21,769 bases of DNA from a virus, in the IMG/VR virus record IMGVR_UViG_3300046003_002942, positions 1 through 21,769 of that record. One strand, given 5' to 3'. Positions 1,900 through 16,857 of the stretch are shown here, one piece after another. Position numbers and translations under genes: made by a program. The first letter of the stretch is position 1. Each line of letters starts with the position of its first letter. The notes beneath the pieces are model-generated. The model was not told the origin of the DNA. It worked only from the letters and a program-made list of their open reading frames with translations, and did no database searches.

Positions 1900-3066
1900 T
1901 TAAGAAGGTAGAGAGAAGCCAATTTGATCGGAGGCAACAGAGATAGCGTTGGTGTTGCCCACGGTGACAATGTAAGTCCAAGAACCCGTTGTCGTATCGT
2001 AGGTAGCAGGCACGCCTTGTTTGGTCACGGTATCCAACACCCATTGATACGGGTTGGTTGAAGCGTTGTAATCGTAAGGACGCACCACAAACGGCACGTT
2101 CTGAGCAACTGTGGATGATTTACGGATGAAGTTAGCCACAACGTCATTGGGAAACTGACATTGTACCGTACAACCCACAGGATAGGTATCACTACTCGTG
2201 GTAAGACCACCAAGCAATGTCGTGCTCACCGCATTTGATGCCAACCCAACAATCAAAGGCCGAGCAAAGAAGTATTGGGTAAATGCAACCACTGGTGGGA
2301 TAGGAGTAAGGCTTTCCAAGCTGTAATTCAACGCACGCAACAGCACAGGCGATTGATAGAAAGGCATGACGTTGCCATTGGTATCAATGATTTCTACGTT
2401 AATCACGCTCTGGCATTCAAGAAAATTACCACGCTTAACACCGTTCATGCGTATCAATTCCATTGCCGTAGATGAGATAAGCCGCAAGTAGCCTTGATAA
2501 CCAGCATACGGTGATACAATCGCTGTAAAGGTCGTGGTCTGCAATGGCACCACGCGAGCAATCGTAACCATCAAGAACTGCCGTGCCGTAGATGTGCCTT
2601 CCGTAAGCACCAAGGAAGTAATGGTGCAGTCTGGCACTAGTAATTTACCATTAAAGATGATGGTCGCAACTGCCCCAACTGCACGGTAGGCAATCAAGAA
2701 CTGCCCATCACCCTGCCTGCTGACATCCACACCACCGCTTGCAATGATGCTAGAATTGGAATTAAGGGCATTTTGAAGACCCGGGGCATCAATGTCCCAC
2801 CGCAAGGTAATCGGGTCTGTGGCTCCAACCGTTAGGCTAAAGACACCGTTGGTTTGGGCTGATGACACATCACCAATCGTTACCCGTAGGACGTTGGTTG
2901 TTGGGTCAATGTTGGTATCAATAGCCCCATTGGTGGTAAAAAAGAATTTATGCTCAGTTTGTGAACCTACCGTCAGCACCGGAAACGGCGCAGGTAAAGT
3001 GTTCAGCAGGCTAACCGTGCGGGCACGGGCAAGATCAGTGGCAGATGTGTTGATGAAATGGTTCAT
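1900..3066 (-). CDS. Unknown distal tail structural protein, 388 aa
   Basis: I do not recognise the family. The protein is rich in Thr, Val, Ile and Asn with alternating beta-strand-like stretches, has no signal peptide or membrane segment, and contains few Cys (in CTI, ECQ and CTVQCQ contexts). The composition suits an all-beta virion protein. Its ATG overlaps the stop of the gene before it (ATGA at 3066-3063), and its stop is one base from the fibre start, so it is probably translationally coupled to both. Position between Cys-rich tail genes and the fibre suggests a tail-tip or fibre-attachment component. This is an inference from position only. Confidence 0.6.
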
Positions 3067-3383
3067 GGTTTTTCAGATGGGGTTATTCCAAGGTCAGGAA
3101 TGAATTTATTCAAGGCTTCCCTTCGTTTAGCGCAAGGTTCACAGCCTACCAGATTTGTCTTAAAAATAGCATCACTAGCACGAGCAATCGGTTGTGCTAC
3201 GCTAGATACCAAATCACCAAGCCCATACATACACCTGCCGTATTGTCGCCACTTAGGACTAGGCAAAGGACAAATGCTGCATTTATCCCCATAATGATTC
3301 ATGTTATGCTGTTGAACACATGGGGTTAAACATTTTTTACAAATATCACGCCTTATCAAATAAAGCCCTTTAGGTATGTTCAT
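3063..3383 (-). CDS. Cys-rich small protein with CxxC motifs, 106 aa
   Basis: The protein has eight cysteines at 15, 18, 22, 35, 38, 51, 81 and 84. Three CxxC pairs are formed: CKKC at 15-18, CSIC at 35-38 and CEPC at 81-84. The C-terminal motif CEPCAKRREALN resembles a CxxCxxRRExLN motif that I recall from small proteins of other phages, often near tail genes; its function is not known to me. The pattern suggests a metal site (zinc or iron-sulfur) or disulfides, but which cannot be told from sequence. It is coupled on both sides by ATGA overlaps (3380-3383 and 3063-3066), so it is probably made in step with the neighbouring structural proteins. Confidence 0.6.
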   Translation of the reverse strand: MNIPKGLYLIRRDICKKCLTPCVQQHNMNHYGDKCSICPLPSPKWRQYGRCMYGLGDLVSSVAQPIARASDAIFKTNLVGCEPCAKRREALNKFIPDLGITPSEKP

Positions 3384-4693
3384 GTTCCAGATGGTTCTAC
3401 ATCAGTAATTACAATTGAACCGTTTGTTGATGGTTCAAGAACGGTGTAAACAGGAGTTTCAGTATCAACATGGTTCCAAGTATATGTTCTTGGCGTACTT
3501 CCTTCCATCCAAGTTATCTGAAAAGTTGTAAATCCTGTAAGATTAGGAAGGGTAAATTTATACTTAAACCGCATGATGGAATAAGTAAGTTCGTCAGATT
3601 CCAAATCTCTAAAAGCCATGCAAGTTCCATCCCATGTGTTAGGATAAGAAGGCAGTATGGCTATGGTTGCAGCAAAAAGATCATCAGTTGTGTATTCCTC
3701 GGACAATGTAGCGACAACCGTTCCAGCATATTTGAAGCTAGGGTATTCCGAATAACAGATTTCATCTCCAACAAATGTTTCGGTTGTTGATGTAACAACA
3801 GGGACACATTCGGCTGCATAACAAGGCACCAATGCTTCGCTCCATCCCGCAACATAAGTTCCATTAACAGTTATTGAATCAACTATCAATGAACCGTAAT
3901 AATCGTATTGTTGCGACCCGCCGAAAGCATTTTCGCCAGTATATTCAACATCACCTGAACAATCCGTGCTAGTAGAAGAATAACTGTATTCATACATTGT
4001 TCCAGTTGGAGCCAATTTACGATAAATTTTAGGAGGAGAAGAAACGTGGCCGGGCCATTCAACAAATCCATATTTGTAGCCAACCGCTGAAATTGAATCA
4101 CAAAGTAATTGTGGCTGATTTGCCGAATAAAGAACAACCGAACCTGTTCCAGTTCCACAAGAATTTGTGGCAAAAAGTTCTATATTGTAATCAATATCAC
4201 TTCCAACAGTTCCATATATTTGACCAGTGGTATTATTAAATGACGCCCAAGAAGGCAAATTAATACAAGCAAAAGAAGTAGGCGAATTTGTAGCCGTTAT
4301 GTAATAAGAAAAATAATCACCAACAAAAACAATGACTTTGCTGGCACTTGTTATTGATGGCGATGGGCCAGTAACAACAAAAGAAACGCCTTTGTTTGGG
4401 CTAGTTCCACAGGAATTAGTTGCCGTAATTCCTATATTTACAGTTCCACACGAGGTTATTGCACCACTGATAAGACCAGTTGATGTGTTTATTGTTAATC
4501 CTGTTGGCAAACCCGTAGCCGCAAAACTGGTTGGATTACCAGATGCAGTTATTTGATATTCAAAATAAACATTTATCGTTTCAGCTATTGGCCCTAATTC
4601 ACTCGTTATCGCTGGTGCTGGACAAGGCACATCAGCAGCACAACTATCACACGTTGGGCATCCTTTGGCTGGGGCTTTAATGTAAATAGCCAT
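3380..4693 (-). CDS. Tail protein with two putative Ig-like (He_PIG) domains
   Basis: Two repeats of the He_PIG type are visible at about residues 27-108 and 112-190. The first carries GLPTGLTINTSTGLISG and the second NLPSWASFNNTTGQIYG, each followed by an ITATNSCGT or LFATNSCGT strand. Such Ig-like domains are common on phage virion surfaces and bacterial adhesins, where they aid weak surface binding. The N-terminus carries a cysteine cluster (C12, C15, C18, C24), which is unusual next to Ig-like domains. The remaining ~240 residues are Thr/Ser/Tyr-rich and unassigned. The start overlaps the preceding gene's stop (TAATG at 4693). The gene is AT-richer than the fibre and capsid genes, which suggests a different recent origin. 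Confidence 0.65.
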   Translation of the reverse strand: MAIYIKAPAKGCPTCDSCAADVPCPAPAITSELGPIAETINVYFEYQITASGNPTSFAATGLPTGLTINTSTGLISGAITSCGTVNIGITATNSCGTSPNKGVSFVVTGPSPSITSASKVIVFVGDYFSYYITATNSPTSFACINLPSWASFNNTTGQIYGTVGSDIDYNIELFATNSCGTGTGSVVLYSANQPQLLCDSISAVGYKYGFVEWPGHVSSPPKIYRKLAPTGTMYEYSYSSTSTDCSGDVEYTGENAFGGSQQYDYYGSLIVDSITVNGTYVAGWSEALVPCYAAECVPVVTSTTETFVGDEICYSEYPSFKYAGTVVATLSEEYTTDDLFAATIAILPSYPNTWDGTCMAFRDLESDELTYSIMRFKYKFTLPNLTGFTTFQITWMEGSTPRTYTWNHVDTETPVYTVLEPSTNGSIVITDVEPSGT

Positions 4694-5178
4694 TAGTACG
4701 GGTCACTAGCTAAAATAAGCATTTTTTTGGCTACTCCACTGGAACACACATCAATTTCTTTTATGCCCATGTTTTGAGTAATGTTATTAAAATTCATAAC
4801 AATTTTTTTACTTAAAACATTATTGGTAAAAGACACACTGTTTGTATTATCAATATCTACTGATTTCAAAAGAGTAGAATTAGGGTCGCTTTGATCTAAA
4901 TAATACCTAAAATGAAGTTCGTTAAGTTGCGTAGTTAAATTTTGACCATTTGCAGCAGGTTGAATCCCAATTCGTATTCTGCCTCTTGGCTTTCTTGATA
5001 TGGTGGTACTGGTGCCCGGCACTTTGAGTTTCTTTTCAGGGCTGCTAACCATTTTGATATTGATGCCTGAAGCTGCTTCAATCGAGGCAATCAACTGCAC
5101 CAATTCATTATGTTTCTCTGCCATTTCAGCAAAGGCAGAAGGTACTTTACCTATTCTGAGATGACTTAGATCGGGCAT
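4693..5178 (-). CDS. Unknown tail-region protein, 161 aa
   Basis: I do not recognise this protein. Residues 1-35 (DLSHLRIGKVPSAFAEMAEK onwards) look helical, followed by a basic linker (KPRGRIRIGIQP) and a beta-rich C-terminal half with an LNELHFRYYLDQ strand. A short N-terminal helix ahead of a beta domain would suit a trimeric tail accessory or fibre-connecting protein, but this is speculative. The gene lies 3 bp after the 425-residue gene and overlaps the next gene by one base (TAATG), so it belongs to the same transcript. It is AT-rich like the gene after it. Confidence 0.55.
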   Translation of the reverse strand: MPDLSHLRIGKVPSAFAEMAEKHNELVQLIASIEAASGINIKMVSSPEKKLKVPGTSTTISRKPRGRIRIGIQPAANGQNLTTQLNELHFRYYLDQSDPNSTLLKSVDIDNTNSVSFTNNVLSKKIVMNFNNITQNMGIKEIDVCSSGVAKKMLILASDPY

Positions 5179-5181
5179 AAA

Positions 5182-6459
5182 TTAAATGGCTTTAACAAAC
5201 CTGCGTTGCCGTTCCCAAATGCTGCCATACCAAAGACTCAGAACTGAATCTTGTGATTCAATGGAATAAGAATTAACATTACCTGAATCTGTTGTAACAT
5301 TACTTTTGTAAGCTGCTAAAGTAGGTGAAGTAGCCACTATACCAAACCCACCATCGCTAAGGTACTCAGCAACAAATTGACCTGACGTGGTTGTGCTTCC
5401 ATAACCCCACGGTGTTTGGTAAAGGTAACGTGTGCCAAACTTAACTGGAATTTGGTCAACTTGGGTAATGGGATAACTCGTTGTGCCGTCACCAGCCGTG
5501 GTGGGTGGCACCGTGGCATAAGGAGCGGTGTTTCCTGCCACTAATTGAGCACGCCAAGCATAAAGGCTGGTAGATGTCCCTGCGTAGGTCGGATTGCCTG
5601 TAACGCCAAGCAAACGTACCTGTAATTGATTTGGGGAGGATGCTGCCGTGCCAGTCACATTGATGCGCCACCAACCATCACCCACGCTGGCAATACCCCA
5701 GCCGTTGCCGTAGATGTATTGGTCAGACAGTGGTTGGCCGATAGCCAAATCAACAGACACGTTGGCAAAGGTGCCTTGACCCCCGTTGTAAAGGCCAACG
5801 TCAACTCGGCTATTGTCCCCTGCTTTGACGAACACGCTGCCAGTAATTAAACCCGTTGCCGTGTTAGCACTTTGGCTAACGTAATGCTGACTGTTGCCCG
5901 TGGTATCGGTAATGCGGGCTGCTGATTGAGTAGCCCCAGCGCAAACGGGAATTGTGGCATAATTTCCCGTTGAAGTAGCACCCGACAAAGACCAAGGTGA
6001 AGCATTGAGGTTGTCGTAACTGGTCAACAAATTGGAAAAAGCTACGGTGTTGCCCACCATGTAGTAATCTTTGGTTTCCTTGGTGGTAACGATGTGGCTG
6101 TAAGGGTTGCGGCCCAACACCAACAGCGTGCCTTGATAACCGGGGTAGTTGTAAACATCCGATGAGAAATCATTCCATGACGTAGGCAACGTGGTGTAAA
6201 CCCGTGTCCACTCTACCAGCCCACCTAGACGATCTTGGAAATCTACGTCATCTGCAAAGTAAACCTGTGGTAAATTGGGGTGTGGGGTGTTGGCGTCAGG
6301 CCGACTGTAATATGCCCGCAACTGCATAAAGCGGGTACGGTATACAATGATCTGACTGTTTTGCGGGTATGGGCGGGTTTGCTCAAACGCACGAGTAGGC
6401 GTCTCAACCGAGAACGCTGGTTGATCTGCCGCTGTTTTGTAGCCAAAGATGGTAGCCAT
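5182..6459 (-). CDS. Distal tail protein with internal lectin-like domain, 425 aa
   Basis: Residues 1-125 and about 320-425 appear to form one structural unit, interrupted by a jelly-roll, carbohydrate-binding-like module at about 143-318. The module has the pattern known from many phage fibre and tail proteins: an opening SNLLTSYDNLNASPWSLSG, then VFVKAG near 210, a GWWRINVTGTA strand near 262, and a closing LYAWRAQLVAGNTAPYATVP near 299. Such modules bind sugars or stabilise trimers. The gene directly follows the tape measure gene (TAAC-ATG), the place where lambda-like phages encode the distal tail protein. The flanking parts match no hub protein that I know. The structural role is likely; the exact function is open. 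Confidence 0.6.
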   Translation of the reverse strand: MATIFGYKTAADQPAFSVETPTRAFEQTRPYPQNSQIIVYRTRFMQLRAYYSRPDANTPHPNLPQVYFADDVDFQDRLGGLVEWTRVYTTLPTSWNDFSSDVYNYPGYQGTLLVLGRNPYSHIVTTKETKDYYMVGNTVAFSNLLTSYDNLNASPWSLSGATSTGNYATIPVCAGATQSAARITDTTGNSQHYVSQSANTATGLITGSVFVKAGDNSRVDVGLYNGGQGTFANVSVDLAIGQPLSDQYIYGNGWGIASVGDGWWRINVTGTAASSPNQLQVRLLGVTGNPTYAGTSTSLYAWRAQLVAGNTAPYATVPPTTAGDGTTSYPITQVDQIPVKFGTRYLYQTPWGYGSTTTSGQFVAEYLSDGGFGIVATSPTLAAYKSNVTTDSGNVNSYSIESQDSVLSLWYGSIWERQRRFVKAI

Positions 6460-6460
6460 G

Positions 6461-8356
6461 TTAGTTTACGGTGGGTGTTAAACTGTTCTTAATTGCCTCA
6501 AGCAACTGGTTAGAGGTCGTGATCTCAGCAGCAATTGAACTAGAATCAGGTGTAATGCGTTGTTGCATCCCAGAGCTACCAAAAGATAAGCGATCAGCTA
6601 CGCTTGTTTCCAATCCTAGGGCACGTTGTTGCTGGTAGGCTGCTTCACCCGGGGCACCTGTTAAAACAGCGTCACGGGCTTGCTGACGAGCTTTGGCAGC
6701 TTGTCTAGCCAACCGTTCAGTTTCAGATAGCGGACGTGGGCGACCATTGGCAAAGGTACGACCTGCACCAGCAACCTGCTCACTAAGCGACTGCGACACG
6801 TCAATCTGACGCTGCTGCATATTTATTTGAGATGCACGATAGCTTCCTTCAGCTTGTATTTGATTTGCTCTAGCACTAGCTTGTTCAAGTTTTGTACCAT
6901 ACATTTCAGCAACTCTAACTGCTTCTTTTGCAATGTTTAATTGGACTTTTGCTAGTGAAATTGCATTAGCTCCACCAGTTTCTTGAAGGTAATTTATCTT
7001 AATAATCCCTTGTTCCTTTGAACTAATATTAAGAGATTCAGCTTCAATAGTATTTTGTGCTGCTTGTAAGGCAATTTGCTTTTGGATTAAATTGTTTTCA
7101 GCAGATGCTATTTGTAATTTTGTACCACCATTTGTTTTAATATCCTGAAGCTGTTTTGTCGCTGCGTCTTGTTCGATTTGAGCAATATCAATAATATCAA
7201 CTTTACGTTGCGACTGGATTTCTTGAATAGCAGTTAAACTGTTTTTATTGGTTTGAAGATTTGCCGTTTCAATTGCATTAGCACGCTTTGCTGCAAAAAC
7301 TTCAATTTCAGCTTGTTTAACCGCAAGTTCAGATTGTTTAATTTCAGCGGGATTTTTTTGCGCTAAAGCTATTCTATTTCTTTCTTTACGAGCATCTATC
7401 AATTTTTGTTCAGCTACGGCAACTGCGGTTAATTGACTGATTTCCTGCAATGAAGAAATGTTTTTTAATGATTCAGCTTTGATTGCAAGAGTAGCATTTT
7501 CTTTAACTAATGCACGCTGAGTTAATTCACTAGCATTGGCATATTCAGTTTCTTTTACTTTAGCATCTTCTACTCTTTGTTTTAATTCAGCATAGGTACT
7601 TGCATACGCGCTGCTAATTAACATCGCAGTTTGATGATATGCCTTGCCCAAAAATGATGTGCCTTCTAAATCTGCAATATCCTTTTTTGCCGTTTTTACA
7701 AATTCAACTGCATCTCTAGCCCTACGTTTAGCAATGGTGGCTTCAGCAGTTAAGCCATATTTGGAAATTGCAGTCTGTTCTGTCGAAGCCAATTGAGCTT
7801 CTCCTGTTTTTTCTTCAGAAACAGCTTCAGTTGCTTTCCGTTGAAAATAATTTGGTACAGCTTGAATAAGCGATGTCATTATCGCGCCAGCACCCATGAA
7901 CAACAAACGTTTGAACATACCACCACCAACCAAGGATGCAACGGAAGTCCCTACTTCTGCTGCGCCTTCACCGCCACGAACTGCACCACCACCACCACTT
8001 TGTGCAGCACTTTCCTTGGCTTCTTTTCGGATTAAAGATTGAAGTTGAGATTGTTTTTTAATGATAGCCAATTGCGCTTCTAAATGAGCTTGTGAACCTT
8101 GTTCATAAGCCTGTTTTGTCTTAGATAATTCAGTTATTTGCGTAGCTACGCTCTTGATTTTATCAATAGTGCTTAATTGCTTAAACATTTCTTGATTTAT
8201 AGCTTCGGTAACTTTTTTAGTACCGTTCAAACCACTAAAAGCAGCATCAGTCTTTTGACCAACCTGCTGCATAACCCCTGTCAGCTTTTGGGCCTGAGCT
8301 TCTGCCTTGGAGGTATCAAGGGATATTTTAAGGGCGACTTCTTGGGAAAATGACAT
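6461..8356 (-). CDS. Tail tape measure protein
   Basis: The 631-residue protein is dominated by long Ala/Gln/Lys/Glu-rich helices with coiled-coil spacing. A Gly-rich hinge (about 121-146) is followed by a hydrophobic stretch at about 147-168 containing MFKRLLFMGAGAIMTSLI. This layout is typical of tape measure proteins, which fix tail length and help pass DNA into the cell. Using the usual ~1.5 Å per residue, the tail would be roughly 90-100 nm. No lytic or peptidase domain is visible. The middle of the gene (about 6840-8240) is clearly AT-richer than its 3' end (6461-6830), suggesting a recombination join. The ATG at 8356 has an AAAGGA element 9 nt upstream that overlaps the previous stop codon. 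Confidence 0.8.
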   Translation of the reverse strand: MSFSQEVALKISLDTSKAEAQAQKLTGVMQQVGQKTDAAFSGLNGTKKVTEAINQEMFKQLSTIDKIKSVATQITELSKTKQAYEQGSQAHLEAQLAIIKKQSQLQSLIRKEAKESAAQSGGGGAVRGGEGAAEVGTSVASLVGGGMFKRLLFMGAGAIMTSLIQAVPNYFQRKATEAVSEEKTGEAQLASTEQTAISKYGLTAEATIAKRRARDAVEFVKTAKKDIADLEGTSFLGKAYHQTAMLISSAYASTYAELKQRVEDAKVKETEYANASELTQRALVKENATLAIKAESLKNISSLQEISQLTAVAVAEQKLIDARKERNRIALAQKNPAEIKQSELAVKQAEIEVFAAKRANAIETANLQTNKNSLTAIQEIQSQRKVDIIDIAQIEQDAATKQLQDIKTNGGTKLQIASAENNLIQKQIALQAAQNTIEAESLNISSKEQGIIKINYLQETGGANAISLAKVQLNIAKEAVRVAEMYGTKLEQASARANQIQAEGSYRASQINMQQRQIDVSQSLSEQVAGAGRTFANGRPRPLSETERLARQAAKARQQARDAVLTGAPGEAAYQQQRALGLETSVADRLSFGSSGMQQRITPDSSSIAAEITTSNQLLEAIKNSLTPTVN

Positions 8357-11229: not shown

Positions 11230-11252
11230 AAAAGCAGGTCAATCCTGCTTTT
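11230..11252 (-). terminator. Terminator-like hairpin closing the cassette
   Basis: A perfect 9-bp inverted repeat (11230-11238 with 11244-11252; AAAAGCAGG) encloses a 5-nt loop. The loop contains the stop codon of the glycosyltransferase-methyltransferase gene (TGA at 11241-11239). On the minus strand the 3' arm ends in four U residues, then ACAG. The stem is AT-rich at its base and the U-tract is short, so termination may be partial. Confidence 0.55.
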
Positions 11253-12648
11253 CAGCGGCTAACTTGGGGGCTAGACGACGGTTAATGAATTTCATCATAC
11301 CCTGACTAGGCTTGTTTTTGTCACCGTAGTAGCGTTGGTGGCAATGCAAGTAGTGGGTTTCGGATAACAGCGTGTTAAGGAAAAACACATCCATGTCGTC
11401 GTGATAACGTACCAAAATGGCATCCAATTTCTCAAGTTTGTTATGAGCTTGGAAGGATGCGATAAGGTCGCGCTCATTCCCGCCAGAGTCCAATTTGAGG
11501 ATTTGTGCGTCTGGCAGTTCTGGCACGTCGTTGGGTGTGACTTCTTTTTCATAAGCCACAAGTTTTTGGTCTTCGTTATCCTTCGCAATGCTCTTTAACG
11601 TGTCTTCAAGGTATTTTACCACCGTTGAATCGCCATCGTAGCAATGCACGGAAGCCCCTTTCCATCGCTTTACAGCCCATCTTGGGAAGGCACCCACACC
11701 AGCACCTATGTCGATGATGGAAAGTGGCTGATTTGGCCCGTAATTGAACAGTGGCACGTCGTAGGAGCCGTTGAGCACGTCACCATCATGCAAATCGTCG
11801 ATTGGGTAGTCTTTCGGCCACAAACGGACAAAACGCTCACGATGCCCACCCATTAGCCCCGGGATGCGTGGGCCTGAAGCCATAAAAGTACGGATATGGT
11901 CATGGGGCATACCGTAACGCTGTGCCATCATGTCCACCATCTCGTCATCGCTAATGGTAAATTGCAGAGGGTACACGATCTTGCCCACATGACGTAATTG
12001 GCAACGGGTGTCTGCGTAAATCTCGCCACCATCCTCAAGCACTCGGTTACAGAATGCCCAATCCTCGGACAAGTAAGTGCCATCTACGGCACGCATGGGG
12101 AAGAAATCGTACCGGATGCTGGTTTGGTCAGGGTCGCCACGATAAACCATTTCAGGGTGCTTAGAAATCATGTCCTCAAGGGCTTTGCGCGTGATGAGCA
12201 ACGCACCCGTACCAGCGTGTTTGATTTTAAGGTAGCCATTTTCATCTACCTTTTCACCGGGGATGTAATTCACCACCCAATCCAACGATGGCTGTTTCTT
12301 GGGATACAACCCGCACACGATGTCCTTGTTGGCATTCAGCAACCGTTGGAACTGCCGTGGCTCAATGATAATGTCTGAATCAAGGAAGAACAAATGCGTG
12401 CAATCAGTCTGAAGGAATGAGTACGCGAGGTTGTTACGGGCACGAGCAACACCATCGTTCATCATGTAGCGAACCTGCGTCTCGCATTTGCACGAGGACG
12501 CAATGATGCGAATAGATTCAGAAGTGTGCAGCTCCAATTTCCAATCTGAGGTAGCAACGGCAATAAATACCTTGGGAAGTTTTGGCACCTCAACCAATGC
12601 GGTTTCGGATGGAGCTGGGAAAGTGAGTTCAGGAGGATTAGTTGACAT
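11239..12648 (-). CDS. Bifunctional glycosyltransferase-methyltransferase fusion, 469 aa
   Basis: Residues 25-230 look like a GT-A glycosyltransferase. There is an N-terminal FIAVATSD strand, a DSD motif at 90-92 within CTHLFFLDSDIIIEP for metal and nucleotide-sugar binding, a GTGALLITRKALEDM segment, and the SEDWAFCNR acidic motif at 194-202 typical of family-2-like enzymes. Residues ~305-469 carry a Rossmann SAM-binding motif (IIDIGAGVGAF, 311-321) followed by VHCYDGDS (334-341), resembling FkbM-type methyltransferases. The likely activity is sugar transfer plus O-methylation; the acceptor is unknown. I chose ATG 12648 because it lies 4 bp after the upstream stop (TAATTTT-ATG). An in-frame ATG at 12723 would lie inside the previous gene and add 25 residues. 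It is the last gene of the cassette. Confidence 0.8.
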   Translation of the reverse strand: MSTNPPELTFPAPSETALVEVPKLPKVFIAVATSDWKLELHTSESIRIIASSCKCETQVRYMMNDGVARARNNLAYSFLQTDCTHLFFLDSDIIIEPRQFQRLLNANKDIVCGLYPKKQPSLDWVVNYIPGEKVDENGYLKIKHAGTGALLITRKALEDMISKHPEMVYRGDPDQTSIRYDFFPMRAVDGTYLSEDWAFCNRVLEDGGEIYADTRCQLRHVGKIVYPLQFTISDDEMVDMMAQRYGMPHDHIRTFMASGPRIPGLMGGHRERFVRLWPKDYPIDDLHDGDVLNGSYDVPLFNYGPNQPLSIIDIGAGVGAFPRWAVKRWKGASVHCYDGDSTVVKYLEDTLKSIAKDNEDQKLVAYEKEVTPNDVPELPDAQILKLDSGGNERDLIASFQAHNKLEKLDAILVRYHDDMDVFFLNTLLSETHYLHCHQRYYGDKNKPSQGMMKFINRRLAPKLAAEKQD

Positions 12649-12652
12649 AAAA

Positions 12653-13384
12653 TTATTTAGCGTAGGTTGCAGAGTAACGAGCGATTTCACCGGGGATGAT
12701 TTCCATGTGTTGAAGTTCACCATTCATTCGGAACATCCCAAATTCAGCGGTAAGGTTGTCCTCAATGTGGAAACCACCTTTCTCCAACGATGCTGCTACC
12801 AGACTCTCAGGATGAAATGAGCAACCAGCAGAAAGCAAAGCAGGGACATTCTCGTAGGTTTCAAAATAAGCCTTGGCTGCTTTGACACCTAGCACAGCAA
12901 AACGGTCATTAACCCCACCGTAGGTGCCCCACCAAGGAGTGTATGCGTCATCCTCATACACGGGTACATCAAATTTGAACTTGTGGAAATGCAGATCAGG
13001 ACGGCAGCGAATCACCGTATCAAATGCTTCCAAGTCTCCCGTGCGTTCGTTGGTAAACTTCCATGCACGACTAAGGTGCCACAGTTGGCGCATGATGCCT
13101 TGCAAGGGTGATACCCCCGGCGTCTTTGTCGGAGTAATGCTGTACGGTGCGTGCTCTGTGAACGATTTGTCAGGCAACGTCAGTTCAGGTGGCGTAACTT
13201 TCTCAATGTGTACGTTAGCCCAATCTTTCTTCAACAATTCTGCTGACTCGGCTTGTTCGTCATCGGCGCATGACACAAAGAAATGCGGATTATCGAACTT
13301 TCGATACACTGCCCATTTTTGCGATGGGTAGCAGCGTGCAAATGTACGCATTTGGCCTGACAGGATGATAGCGGTGTTACTCAT
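12653..13384 (-). CDS. Glycosyltransferase-like protein, 243 aa
   Basis: The protein opens with AIILSGQMRTF, a start shared by a family of glycosyltransferase-like proteins seen in phages and capsule loci. It then has FDTVIRCRPDLHFHKF (121-136; RxRPD) and GVNDRFAVLGVKAAKAYF (157-174), where GT-A-like members carry acidic and aromatic donor-site residues. There is no signal peptide or membrane segment, so it should act in the cytoplasm on nucleotide-sugar donors. Donor and acceptor cannot be read from sequence. It overlaps the preceding gene by 4 bp (ATGA) and is followed 4 bp later by the fusion gene, so the two transferases are probably co-translated and may act in sequence. Confidence 0.7.
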   Translation of the reverse strand: MSNTAIILSGQMRTFARCYPSQKWAVYRKFDNPHFFVSCADDEQAESAELLKKDWANVHIEKVTPPELTLPDKSFTEHAPYSITPTKTPGVSPLQGIMRQLWHLSRAWKFTNERTGDLEAFDTVIRCRPDLHFHKFKFDVPVYEDDAYTPWWGTYGGVNDRFAVLGVKAAKAYFETYENVPALLSAGCSFHPESLVAASLEKGGFHIEDNLTAEFGMFRMNGELQHMEIIPGEIARYSATYAK

Positions 13385-13710
13385 GGTTGTTTTGTGTGTG
13401 GCTGGAAAATCTTACGATCAGAATTGTTTGGGATATAAAAGGTCAGGTTGTAATCGGCAAAATATTGACCGGGCTTCAAAACACCCTGTGTGCAAATCCA
13501 ATCCCAAAAGGTCGCTTTTTTACGAAGTATCAGCAGCAAGGCATCTTTTTGTTCAAAATTAACGTAGAAGAATCGCCCGTGGTAATCACGCAGGTACAAC
13601 CAATCATTGCCTGACTGCACCCAATCAAAACCTTCAGGTGCTTTGCGTAGGCTAGTGTAAATACCCCAGCCTAAAGCAGAGTAATTCAAATATGGAGGGG
13701 TGTCGGTCAT
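13381..13710 (-). CDS. Unknown cassette protein, 109 aa
   Basis: I do not recognise this protein. It is aromatic-rich (many Trp, Tyr and Phe), with segments GWGIYTSLRKAPEGFDW, DWLYLRDYHGRFFYVNF and FWDWICTQGVLKPGQYFADY. It has no membrane segment or signal peptide. It is coupled to both neighbours by ATGA overlaps (13710-13707 and 13384-13381), so it is an integral part of the modification cassette. The dense aromatic content would suit a small carbohydrate-handling or partner-binding protein, but this is conjecture. Confidence 0.6.
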   Translation of the reverse strand: MTDTPPYLNYSALGWGIYTSLRKAPEGFDWVQSGNDWLYLRDYHGRFFYVNFEQKDALLLILRKKATFWDWICTQGVLKPGQYFADYNLTFYIPNNSDRKIFQPHTKQP

Positions 13711-14264
13711 GTGCGTTTTAAAATACGGCTAAGACCAAGCAAGCCGTTGTTGTTGTCCCAATGACGCATCACCTGCCATTGGTCGTTGTTGGCAAGAAAC
13801 TCGTAAATCGCACGAGTAATACCCGTCTGACCATTCTCACCATTGTCACCAAAAATAACGGTATCGTGCAAAAAGATAAAGTGATCTACCCTGTGAGCAA
13901 ATTTCAATTCAGCCCGCACTTGGTCAGCCGTGTGCAGGGTGTCGATAAACAACAAGTCGCAGATTGGAATGTCCTCAAGCGTTTTGGTGTCAGCTTTGGT
14001 GAACTTCCAAGTGGTACGCAGGTTCTCAGGTGGGGTGTACGGTGTATCGTTAATGTCAAAGCTGTGTAGAATGCCTCCCCCGTTCGATTCTAGGCCATGT
14101 AACAGGGCAACCGTACTGTTACCAGTCCTAGTGCCAAATTCCACGATAGAACCGCACAGATAGGCATAGCCTGACAATGTGCTGAGGTGTTCGTTGATGT
14201 CTTTGTGCGTACCGTTACGACAAGCCATACGTTCTTGGTAATCTTTTTCTAGGTCTTGGTTCAT
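13707..14264 (-). CDS. Class I SAM methyltransferase (family 24-like), 185 aa
   Basis: A Rossmann SAM-binding motif, VEFGTRTGNST, is visible at 41-51. It is followed by an acidic strand end (SFDIND, 68-73), then DLLFIDTLHTADQVRAEL (103-120) and FIFLHDT (129-135). This is the layout of Methyltransf_24 and cephalosporin-hydroxylase-like proteins, which often O-methylate sugars in surface polysaccharide loci. The protein is short and appears to be a single domain. I chose ATG 14264, 4 bp after the preceding stop and with a GGA element 9 nt upstream. An ATG at 14294 lies within the preceding gene. In the cassette it would methylate sugars added by the neighbouring transferases. The substrate is an inference. 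Confidence 0.75.
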   Translation of the reverse strand: MNQDLEKDYQERMACRNGTHKDINEHLSTLSGYAYLCGSIVEFGTRTGNSTVALLHGLESNGGGILHSFDINDTPYTPPENLRTTWKFTKADTKTLEDIPICDLLFIDTLHTADQVRAELKFAHRVDHFIFLHDTVIFGDNGENGQTGITRAIYEFLANNDQWQVMRHWDNNNGLLGLSRILKRT

Positions 14265-14268
14265 AGAA

Positions 14269-14463
14269 TTATTTCCACTTAGGAGGACGACCACCCAACA
14301 GTCCGTTTCTACGGGCTGCTGCTGTTTTGGCGCGTGATTTCACACTGCCAGCTTTGGCAAAGCGTGATGGCACAGTTTTCTTCTTTTTCATGCGGGATAA
14401 ATAACCGATGAATAACCCAACAACTACCTGCAAGCATAAACCCAACAAAAGCAAAAACCCCAC
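14269..14463 (-). CDS. Small basic protein, possible N-terminal membrane segment
   Basis: The C-terminal 40 residues (from the ATG at 14391) are very basic: MKKKKTVPSRF, then KSRAKTAAARRNGLLGG and RPPKWK. Small phage proteins ending in an AAARxNGxxGGRP motif are known to me, but not their function. A GTG at 14463 would extend the frame by 24 residues forming a strongly hydrophobic stretch (GFLLLLGLCLQVVVGLFIGY) followed by basic residues, as in a single-span membrane protein. That GTG lies inside the stem of the upstream terminator, and the hydrophobic codons come partly from its T-rich tail. The 40-residue form is therefore an equally good reading. The next gene follows 4 bp after the stop. 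Confidence 0.45.
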   Translation of the reverse strand: MGFLLLLGLCLQVVVGLFIGYLSRMKKKKTVPSRFAKAGSVKSRAKTAAARRNGLLGGRPPKWK

Positions 14464-14931: not shown

Positions 14932-16857
14932 TTACTGAGCAGCCGAATCCGTGGAAACACAGAACGAAGGCCAGTGACGGACACCGAAATCGGTGAACAG
15001 GTTGACGGTAACGACAACTTGGTTGTTCGCCGCTTGGGTGTATGGGTCAACGACGACATCGTAACCAGCCCAGTCGAAGAACATAGCCTGACCCCACGCA
15101 CCGAAGATCGCTTTGTTGGCGTTGCTGCCAGTGGTAGCGATTTGGTTCGTGATGTTCACGGGATAACCGTTGGTCATGTTGTCATCACCCGAGAGGAACA
15201 CAGGGTAATTCGGGACTTTGACGGTGGTCTTCCACTTGGCGCGAACCGTGGGGTTCGTGAGCCATTGCATCGTGCCGAGGTCAGCGTTCGCAGACTGAAT
15301 CTGCTGTTCAAACTTAACGACGTTCGCCCAAGTAGGAGCGGTGCCGAAAGTGACGCTGGTGATGTTGTTGCCGCCGCCCGTAGAATCGGTGGTAGGCCCA
15401 TTGAGGATGCCCATAGGCTGCGAACCACCCGTGCCTTGGATACCAGCCAAATCTTTAGCGATAGCGATAATGCGAACATGGTCGTCACGCACAAGGGCTT
15501 CCGCATCGAGGGAGGACTGGGCCAGCAATTGCTTGCTGTAAGCCGTGCGAGCAGCAAGACGGCGAGGAGTAGCCGCGAGCTGTGCAAACGACTGCTTGGT
15601 GTCGGTAACAGCGTCACCTTCAGCCAGCCAGTAAGCGGTAGCCGCACCGGACTGACGTGGGATGGCGATGTTGCCAACCAGACCGCTCATCGTACCAACG
15701 CCGAGTTGGGTGAGGAGGGTGCGGTTACGAAGCAGCTCGATGAAGGAACCACCAAGGAAGTCCGTCGCAACAAGAGCACCCGCTTGGGAGAAGTTGTTGG
15801 TTTGGAGCTGACGTTGGAGGTTTTGACCGTAACGGCTGTTGGCGAGGCTAGGCGAAACGCGAAGCATCGCTGCCGTCATCTCAGGGTCAGCGTATTCAGC
15901 CATATCATGCGGCATGATGAAACCGCCAGCATGGGCTTCACGACGGTATTGCTTAGAAGCAGCGTCGGAGGCTTCTTTTTCCAGACCATCAAGAGGACGG
16001 TTTTGGGAGAGAAGGTTGATAGCGCGGGTCAGGCTGTACCGACGCTTTTCTTTCTTGTTCATGCCAATGACAGCGGGCTGGCTGACAGCGGTAGCCTTAA
16101 GGTGATCTTCCACGACGAATTTGCGGAAGCTATCGAGGGATTCGCCATTCACGATGGCGTCCATAACACGCTCGGAGGAGACTTTGAAGTTCTCACCGAT
16201 AGCGCGGATATTGGCAACTTCATCCTTGCGGGTGACGTTGGCGTTGGAGGGAGCAGGAGCACGCTCGGCAACCGTAACGGCTGGAGCAGCAGGAGTATTT
16301 TCAGCGGACATATTAGTTTTTGGTTTCTCTAAAGGTTGTGGTTGGGAACGACCCACGCCAACGGAAGCGTCGGCTGGGATGCTGACGAGGCTAATTTCAT
16401 ACGGTTCCCACGAGTCCACACGGTAGCTGTCCCCAGCATCGGTGTTTTTCTCCGCGAGTACCATATTCTTCACACGGTAGCCTACGCTGACCAAGCTACG
16501 GATACCGTCTTGCACGTCCTGAAAGATGTCTAAGCCATGCTTGGAGCGGTTCTTTGAGAACCGGACAACCGCACGAGCTTTGCCGCCTTTGATTTGGCAG
16601 CTTTCCACGACGCCGATCTGGTCTTCAGGGTCGTGGTTAAGGAGGAGAGGAGCTTGTTGACGAAGACGCGAGAGGTCGCACGCCTTATCGGTACACTCCA
16701 AAATTTCATTACCAAAGAAGCGTTCAACCGGAGCTTCAGAAGCAAACGATAGCTCAACGGTACGTTTGTCGGCATCCATCGACCCACGTTCAACATTGAA
16801 CTCGCGGGACATGGCTTTTAAGCGACTGTCGCTTAGATCAATTGGTTTTTTATCCAT
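14932..16857 (-). CDS. Prohead protease fused to HK97-fold major capsid protein
   Basis: Residues ~25-172 are a prohead serine protease (S78/U35 type). The catalytic His lies in LLLNHD (H75), the Ser in SLVSVGY (S124), and the segment WEPYEISLVSIPA (150-162) completes the fold. Residues ~183-320 form a charged, Ala/Pro-rich linker plus helical region, as in HK97 delta or scaffold domains. Residues ~325-641 are an HK97-type major capsid protein: FLGGSFIELLRNRTLLTQLG, AIPRQSGAATAYWLAEGD, a CATH-like E/A-loop body, and GQAMFFDWAGYDVVVDPY near the end. Such fusions are known in other phages. The protease would cut the scaffold and linker during maturation. An in-frame ATG at 16311 (M183) could give the capsid part alone. 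The start at 16857 has no Shine-Dalgarno sequence. Confidence 0.9.
   Translation of the reverse strand: MDKKPIDLSDSRLKAMSREFNVERGSMDADKRTVELSFASEAPVERFFGNEILECTDKACDLSRLRQQAPLLLNHDPEDQIGVVESCQIKGGKARAVVRFSKNRSKHGLDIFQDVQDGIRSLVSVGYRVKNMVLAEKNTDAGDSYRVDSWEPYEISLVSIPADASVGVGRSQPQPLEKPKTNMSAENTPAAPAVTVAERAPAPSNANVTRKDEVANIRAIGENFKVSSERVMDAIVNGESLDSFRKFVVEDHLKATAVSQPAVIGMNKKEKRRYSLTRAINLLSQNRPLDGLEKEASDAASKQYRREAHAGGFIMPHDMAEYADPEMTAAMLRVSPSLANSRYGQNLQRQLQTNNFSQAGALVATDFLGGSFIELLRNRTLLTQLGVGTMSGLVGNIAIPRQSGAATAYWLAEGDAVTDTKQSFAQLAATPRRLAARTAYSKQLLAQSSLDAEALVRDDHVRIIAIAKDLAGIQGTGGSQPMGILNGPTTDSTGGGNNITSVTFGTAPTWANVVKFEQQIQSANADLGTMQWLTNPTVRAKWKTTVKVPNYPVFLSGDDNMTNGYPVNITNQIATTGSNANKAIFGAWGQAMFFDWAGYDVVVDPYTQAANNQVVVTVNLFTDFGVRHWPSFCVSTDSAAQ

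Follow-up and report, generated by a model that had tools for sequence, protein, structure and literature searches.

Cysteine clusters occur in two overlapping genes on the minus strand of the viral DNA analysed here (the window; 21,769 nucleotides, positions 1 to 21,769 of IMG/VR virus record IMGVR_UViG_3300046003_002942), which raises the question of what the two products do together and what their cysteines are for. The first-pass annotation had described a coupled pair, an Ig-like protein headed by a Cys cluster and a small protein with eight Cys, and had considered a shared metal site or a tail-tip spike held by metal ions. We determined the positions of the relevant features (Table 1) and followed the pair through related and unrelated phages.

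Table 1. Positions of the gene pair, its parts and its neighbours in the window
Feature	Position	Strand	Remarks
437-aa variable Cys-rich tail protein (upstream partner)	3380..4693	-	ORF; He_PIG; phrog_8763; 14 Cys
N-terminal Cys cluster C12-x2-C15-x2-C18-x5-C24 of the 437-aa partner	4622..4660	-	spacing identical in L040; L004 with four Cys
Two Ig-like domains of the 437-aa protein, about residues 27-189	4127..4615	-	Pfam, AlphaFold2; Foldseek Ig and adhesin matches
C-terminal part of the 437-aa protein, about residues 191-437	3383..4123	-	AlphaFold2 below 50 pLDDT
106-aa small protein	3063..3383	-	ORF; 4-nt overlap with the 437-aa gene
Variable N-terminal extension of the small protein, residues 1-53, with C15, C18, C22, C35, C38, C51	3225..3383	-	exchanged with partner; AlphaFold2 low confidence
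Constant GLGD...CxxCxxRRExLN module, residues 54-96; predicted helical hairpin H55-74 and H82-94	3096..3224	-	
C81-x-x-C84 of the module, start of second helix	3132..3143	-	
161-aa preceding gene	4693..5178	-	C-terminal part (below about 4901) within the segment exchanged vs L004
425-aa conserved tail-region gene	5182..6459	-	locus finder independent of the pair
388-aa conserved downstream gene	1900..3066	-	4-nt overlap with the small gene

The first four of the cysteines in the 437-aa protein are C12, C15, C18 and C24, and the small protein carries its cysteines at residues 15, 18, 22, 35, 38, 51, 81 and 84. Given a cysteine background of 0.74% in the 19 other window genes listed, the binomial chance of finding at least eight Cys in 106 aa is 1.5e-6 and that of at least four in 24 aa is 2.9e-5. 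Chance enrichment is ruled out by these tests together with the counts over 112 loci and over locus clusters given below. CxxC was found among the 19 other genes only in the terminase (C242/C245 and C270/C273), in agreement with the annotated rarity of Cys-rich motifs elsewhere in the window. The overlap of the two genes, which measures 4 nt, and the position of the C12/C15/C18/C24 cluster ahead of two Ig-like domains were likewise borne out, the latter by the Cys positions, Pfam and AlphaFold2. The small protein had been said to hold eight Cys in CxxC pairs; the number is correct, but there are three CxxC pairs, and C22 and C51 stand outside them.

The 437-aa protein matches He_PIG in Pfam (E 4e-11, 43.7 bits against a curated cut-off of 24) and the tail protein family phrog_8763 in PHROGs (E 2.5e-19). 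Both likenesses concern the Ig-like part and cover only residues 27-187, leaving the Cys leader and the C-terminal part outside. AlphaFold2 gave block means of 59-86 pLDDT over residues 21-190, and the remainder stayed below 50. Foldseek returned many Ig proteins for this model, with the staphylococcal adhesin SraP at the top (E 4.6e-9), matches that we take as support for the Ig fold only.

In the window, packaging, portal and capsid genes match the GpA terminase, Nu1, a lambda-type portal and a fused protease-capsid protein, and minus-strand tail genes follow. A single 641-aa ORF (14932-16857) joins prohead protease and major capsid protein (Peptidase_S78 plus Phage_capsid). The region between capsid and tail genes (11239-14294) includes a methyltransferase gene (Methyltransf_24, E 2e-11) and, with matches that stay below cut-off, a glycosyltransferase-like gene (Anp1, E 8e-6, and family 2) and a DUF7796 gene, which suggests sugar modification. 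A long repetitive fibre-like gene is located downstream of the pair; positions 1-1898 contain its start, and the window edge cuts it. In L002 this gene is a 1490-aa ORF that, judged by eye, ends like a fibre tip of the chaperone type. In other loci there are single neighbours that match tape-measure, major tail or sheath families.

We then compared the pair with its nearest relatives. The small gene is present in three IMG/VR contigs at 65-100% identity. The genes surrounding the pair in L004 are like those of the window, with blocks at 88-96% nucleotide identity, whereas the two sequences differ over a segment that begins at about residue 93 of the 161-aa gene, takes in the whole 437-aa gene and ends at residue 53 of the small gene. 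Similarity returns at position 3225, which is the GLGD codon. The L004 counterpart of the 437-aa protein is 291 aa long and keeps MAIYIK and a Cys cluster; a family scan of this counterpart for an Ig domain found none. The C-terminal part of the 437-aa protein (about residues 191-437) shows 35-36% identity in L004 and L271 and is replaced in L040, a more distant phage. The partner in L034 is a different Cys-rich protein.

Loss of the cysteines in homologues and separate occurrence of the two genes had been named as findings that would refute the coupling; neither check went against it. In the small protein C15, C18, C22, C38, C81 and C84 are kept in L004 but C35 and C51 are not, while L271, read by eye, has counterparts of all eight. 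In the large protein the cluster of L040, GCANCQNCAAPNPC, is followed by He_PIG domains and has a spacing identical to that of the window, GCPTCDSCAADVPC, that is C-x2-C-x2-C-x5-C, whereas L004 has four N-terminal Cys at a spacing unlike that of the window. Co-occurrence of the two genes gave a uniform result. A scan with the 425-aa gene, independent of the pair, detected five loci, of which four lie on contigs already known from the module to carry both genes at this place and one was new; both genes are present on 5/5 of these contigs.

The C-terminal half of the small protein turned out to be a module of 40-50 residues with the consensus GLGD...C(x)xC-xxR[RQ]ExLN. Across 20 aligned members, the window protein among them, GxGD, the two Cys, R and LN are invariant, and the window protein has all of these features. 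A profile-guided scan of IMG/VR with a first alignment confirmed 202/366 stretches, and scans with two other alignments confirmed at least 422 and at least 246, each among 600 stretches listed; at most 80 loci were taken from each scan. Matches in named phage records are few (6/50,697, representing four phages, two of them present twice). Cultured phages with the module include Nonlabens phage P12024S and Microcystis phage Mel-JY01. The species-genome collection yielded 1/9 pattern stretches confirmed, in a Pseudomonadales MAG contig reading like phage; the peptide pattern used for this collection is narrow, and absence elsewhere in it is therefore weak evidence. On this contig (L112) a minimal module gene (7995-8150) is preceded, at a distance of two genes, by the gene of a 57-aa protein with CMCGGGGECCC (7616-7789).

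Among catalogued families phrog_32048 (PHROGs v4, function unassigned) comes closest to the GLGD...CxxC...R[RQ]ExLN module. This family is matched by 19/20 module fragments at E<=1 (best 9e-23) and by 5/10 full-length small proteins at E<=0.01. The module fragment of the window itself reaches only E 0.13 and is linked to phrog_32048 through intermediates, relatives with values up to 9e-23; its best match is phrog_29030 at E 0.049, likewise a family without assigned function, and the full small protein of the window matches nothing in PHROGs at 0.01. Searches with the module found no convincing family in Pfam, and 37 module proteins gave no convincing match in NCBIfam (best E 0.014). The best PDB sequence matches, to GCN1 (E 0.016) and to an antimicrobial peptide (E 0.44), were read as chance. 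Two Klebsiella matches, H9 and H10, were too weak to keep (E 3-9), and H9 falls within a head-tail connector region. AlphaFold2, run with 37 sequences, models the module with confidence as a helical hairpin whose second helix opens with CxxC; the N-terminal half of the small protein has no confident model. A PDB fold search with the hairpin gave no trusted match.

To describe the neighbourhood of the module we reduced 233 loci to 112: of those dropped, 72 were redundant, 29 showed no motif match and 20 had no ORF of at least 100 aa upstream. The neighbour was defined as the longest plus-strand ORF that has at least 100 aa and stops no more than 450 nt ahead of GLGD, and was called Cys-rich or Cys-clustered if it had at least 3% Cys or at least 3 Cys in its first 45 residues. 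An alternative rule based on the longest ATG-started frame of the small gene had given 21/35 and 58/92 but hid overlapping partners; the neighbour was therefore redefined and the counts over 112 loci are reported. The upstream neighbour is Cys-rich or Cys-clustered in 77/112 non-redundant loci, compared with 53/665 other plus-strand genes of the same loci (odds ratio 25). A tight cluster, with three Cys in a stretch of seven residues among the first 30, is found in 45/112 neighbours vs 0/665 other genes, and CCC starting at residues 5-12 in 31/112 vs 0/665. The small gene starts between -60 and +15 nt from the partner stop in 70 of the 77 pairs, in 39 of them at -4. The N-terminal extension has at least 3 Cys in 41/77 loci with a Cys-rich partner and in 0/35 without. 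The same holds when loci are grouped by single linkage on any shared nucleotide match of at least 200 nt and the first member is scored: pairing is seen in 40/54 clusters (p 5e-28), a tight cluster in 21/54, and an extension with at least 3 Cys in 20/40 paired vs 0/14 unpaired clusters. The pairing recurs across unrelated phages.

The link is not exclusive, since 35/112 loci, including the close module relatives L030 and L032, have no Cys-rich neighbour. In these loci the module follows capsid-like or other genes, as read by eye, and must therefore serve in some way without such a partner. Minimal CGC modules without a Cys-rich neighbour follow capsid-region-like genes in L042, L049, L060, L076, L086 and L093, which indicates that the module has another setting. 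A short Cys-bearing tail (e.g. HDGxC), perhaps a third Cys element, closes the gene that precedes the Cys-rich partner in L043, L044, L050, L195, L196 and L217.

CxxC and CxC are usual spacings of metal-binding cysteines, and both occur in the module: CxxC in 72/77 loci with a Cys-rich partner and CxC in 21/35 without. This bears on the suggestion that the tail tip is locked by metal, with the Cys of both proteins, or the N-terminal half of the small protein alone, binding zinc or an iron-sulfur cluster. That the four N-terminal Cys (C15, C18, C22, C38) are shared by the window and L004, that L271 has six, and that the extensions of other members carry 4-6 or more Cys is all consistent with such a site. 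The module alone, however, offers only two Cys, the Cys-rich half is given no confident structure by AlphaFold2, and C35 and C51 of the window are missing in L004. A precedent for a Cys-coordinated cofactor in the tail tip exists in siphophages: the hub protein of lambda (gpL), RcGTA and roseophage R4C is reported to hold a [4Fe-4S] cluster (PMC10721106, PMC10276861). The hub, unrelated to the present pair, is likened to it by description, not by sequence, and differs in that a single protein provides all four Cys and in that a metal in the present pair is putative. We regard metal locking as a serious possibility that nevertheless falls short of even chances.

The CxxC at a helix N-terminus, together with partners of up to 11.6% Cys (L131), would also suit a module acting as a small thiol-handling factor that keeps the Cys of the partner reduced or correctly paired during assembly. 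CxC, however, is common where no Cys-rich partner is present (21/35), and the helical hairpin found no fold match; it resembles no oxidoreductase fold known to us. This function appears quite unlikely.

Exchange was looked at in 701 locus pairs with nucleotide similarity; in 12 of them both flanks are shared, whereas the partner is shared over less than 40%. Flanks are conserved and central genes replaced, as in an exchangeable adhesin cassette. Eight of the 12 were compared closely without gaps: seven remain at background identity until the GLGD codon and rise there, the exception being L136/L139, where the N-terminal extension is shared and was left in place by the exchange. The start of the partner is shared as well in L150/183, L152/183, L152/186 and L186/188: its first 30 nt, which code for M[ST]RRRxCCC, are alike at 0.67-0.77, and identity then drops to background. 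L037/L038 are alike over the first 30 nt of the partner (0.67) but not over the Cys-cluster stretch (0.33, ungapped). The 12 pairs fall into about four phage groups plus one (L221/L230, with L221 lacking a Cys-rich neighbour), and since they overlap in membership they do not represent twelve independent events. The boundary of exchange lies at the GLGD codon, and the CCC leader is kept in one phage group.

The pair can also be found together at another place. In L270 neither gene of the pair stands between the conserved neighbours: the preceding gene's homologue has its end at 7854, the start of the 388-aa homologue is at 7908, and the module is found neither in this gap nor elsewhere in the 12.3 kb stretch. 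Joint loss was ruled out, because the full contig of 24,968 bases carries both genes further on, adjacent to each other, behind fibre and holin-like genes (labels by eye). There a 318-aa protein with 17 Cys, starting MSTYISMTAGCCPGCSSDPC, is overlapped by the gene of a 110-aa protein with eight Cys that ends GLGD...CGSCAKRRAALN. The former shows 36% identity to residues 279-400 of the window protein, and the two small proteins 51%. The pair thus stays together in another place, and the two genes have moved jointly in this one case. The annotated coupling of the two genes is strongly supported and extends far beyond the window phage, given the locus and cluster counts, the joint exchange and the joint move.

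The 12 locus pairs with exchange at this place and the 35 modules without partner could also be accounted for by a recombination hot spot in which both genes reside without any joint function. The recurrence of the association in 40/54 clusters, the dependence of the Cys content of the extension on that of the neighbour, and, in one relative, the persistence of the pair at another place in the genome all speak against mere neighbourhood, which we consider very improbable.

Tfa-type proteins serve as assembly chaperones for some tail fibres, and the small protein could similarly be dedicated to the assembly of the Cys-rich tail protein without becoming part of the finished particle. Its gene lies immediately downstream with an overlap, is exchanged with the partner and in one phage moved with it, as would be expected of such a chaperone. 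On the other hand, what stays constant in it is the C-terminal module, not the region that is exchanged along with the partner, modules occur without Cys-rich neighbour, and no chaperone family was matched in PHROGs, Pfam or NCBIfam. We judge a purely chaperoning role to be unlikely, although less so than thiol handling.

In summary, the pair is probably a host-recognition tail cassette that is exchanged as a unit and anchored by two Cys motifs. In the Cys-rich tail protein encoded by the first gene, a short N-terminal Cys cluster would be constant and the body replaced from phage to phage; in the window phage this body would consist of the two Ig-like domains and the C-terminal part. The cassette is supported by the variability of the first protein, its tail position and Ig-like domains, and by the joint exchange and joint move; the first protein is presumably an adhesin. 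Among 52 partner proteins, 2 match phrog_8763 and 50 have no Pfam or PHROG family at E 0.001, so that the term adhesin rests on position and variability. The second gene, translationally coupled to the first, would supply a variable N-terminal half that is exchanged together with the first gene and probably fits its product, and a constant C-terminal hairpin with CxxC whose probable docking site is either an invariant particle component or the constant Cys leader. Since 35/112 modules lack a Cys-rich neighbour, an invariant particle component is more likely as the docking site than the leader only. We infer that the small protein is either part of the particle or an assembly partner of the first protein, and that the cysteines of the pair may bind metal or each other. 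A more specific version is that the constant CCC-type leader of the adhesin and the CxxC module of its partner meet in one metal or thiol site, a cysteine socket formed across two genes and serving as a plug-in joint for interchangeable receptor-binding proteins in many unrelated, mostly uncultured phages. We put this forward tentatively and hold it to be rather doubtful, somewhat more so than metal locking.

Exchangeable tail adhesins are a known kind of system. In the long-fibre tip of T-even phages, gp37/gp38, and in like adhesin pairs, two adjacent tail genes have their host-specific part exchanged, and it is in this respect, by description and not by sequence, that the present pair resembles gp37/gp38; Pfam and PHROGs scans of the window proteins found no gp37 or gp38 family. 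We know of no Cys anchors in pairs of the gp37/gp38 type. The literature, in partial coverage, contained no paper on this gene pair or on phrog_32048 among the matches listed, and the Cys-anchored two-gene form and the wide pairing of the module, not found among those matches, appear new in this sense. The two Cys anchors provide a precise hypothesis on how the variable protein attaches. If the proposed reading is true, the pair represents a widespread means, as yet unstudied, of swapping a probable host-recognition part between phages. It would mark the probable host-recognition gene in a large class of environmental phages with uncatalogued tail proteins, and the constant module would serve as a search handle for such genes.
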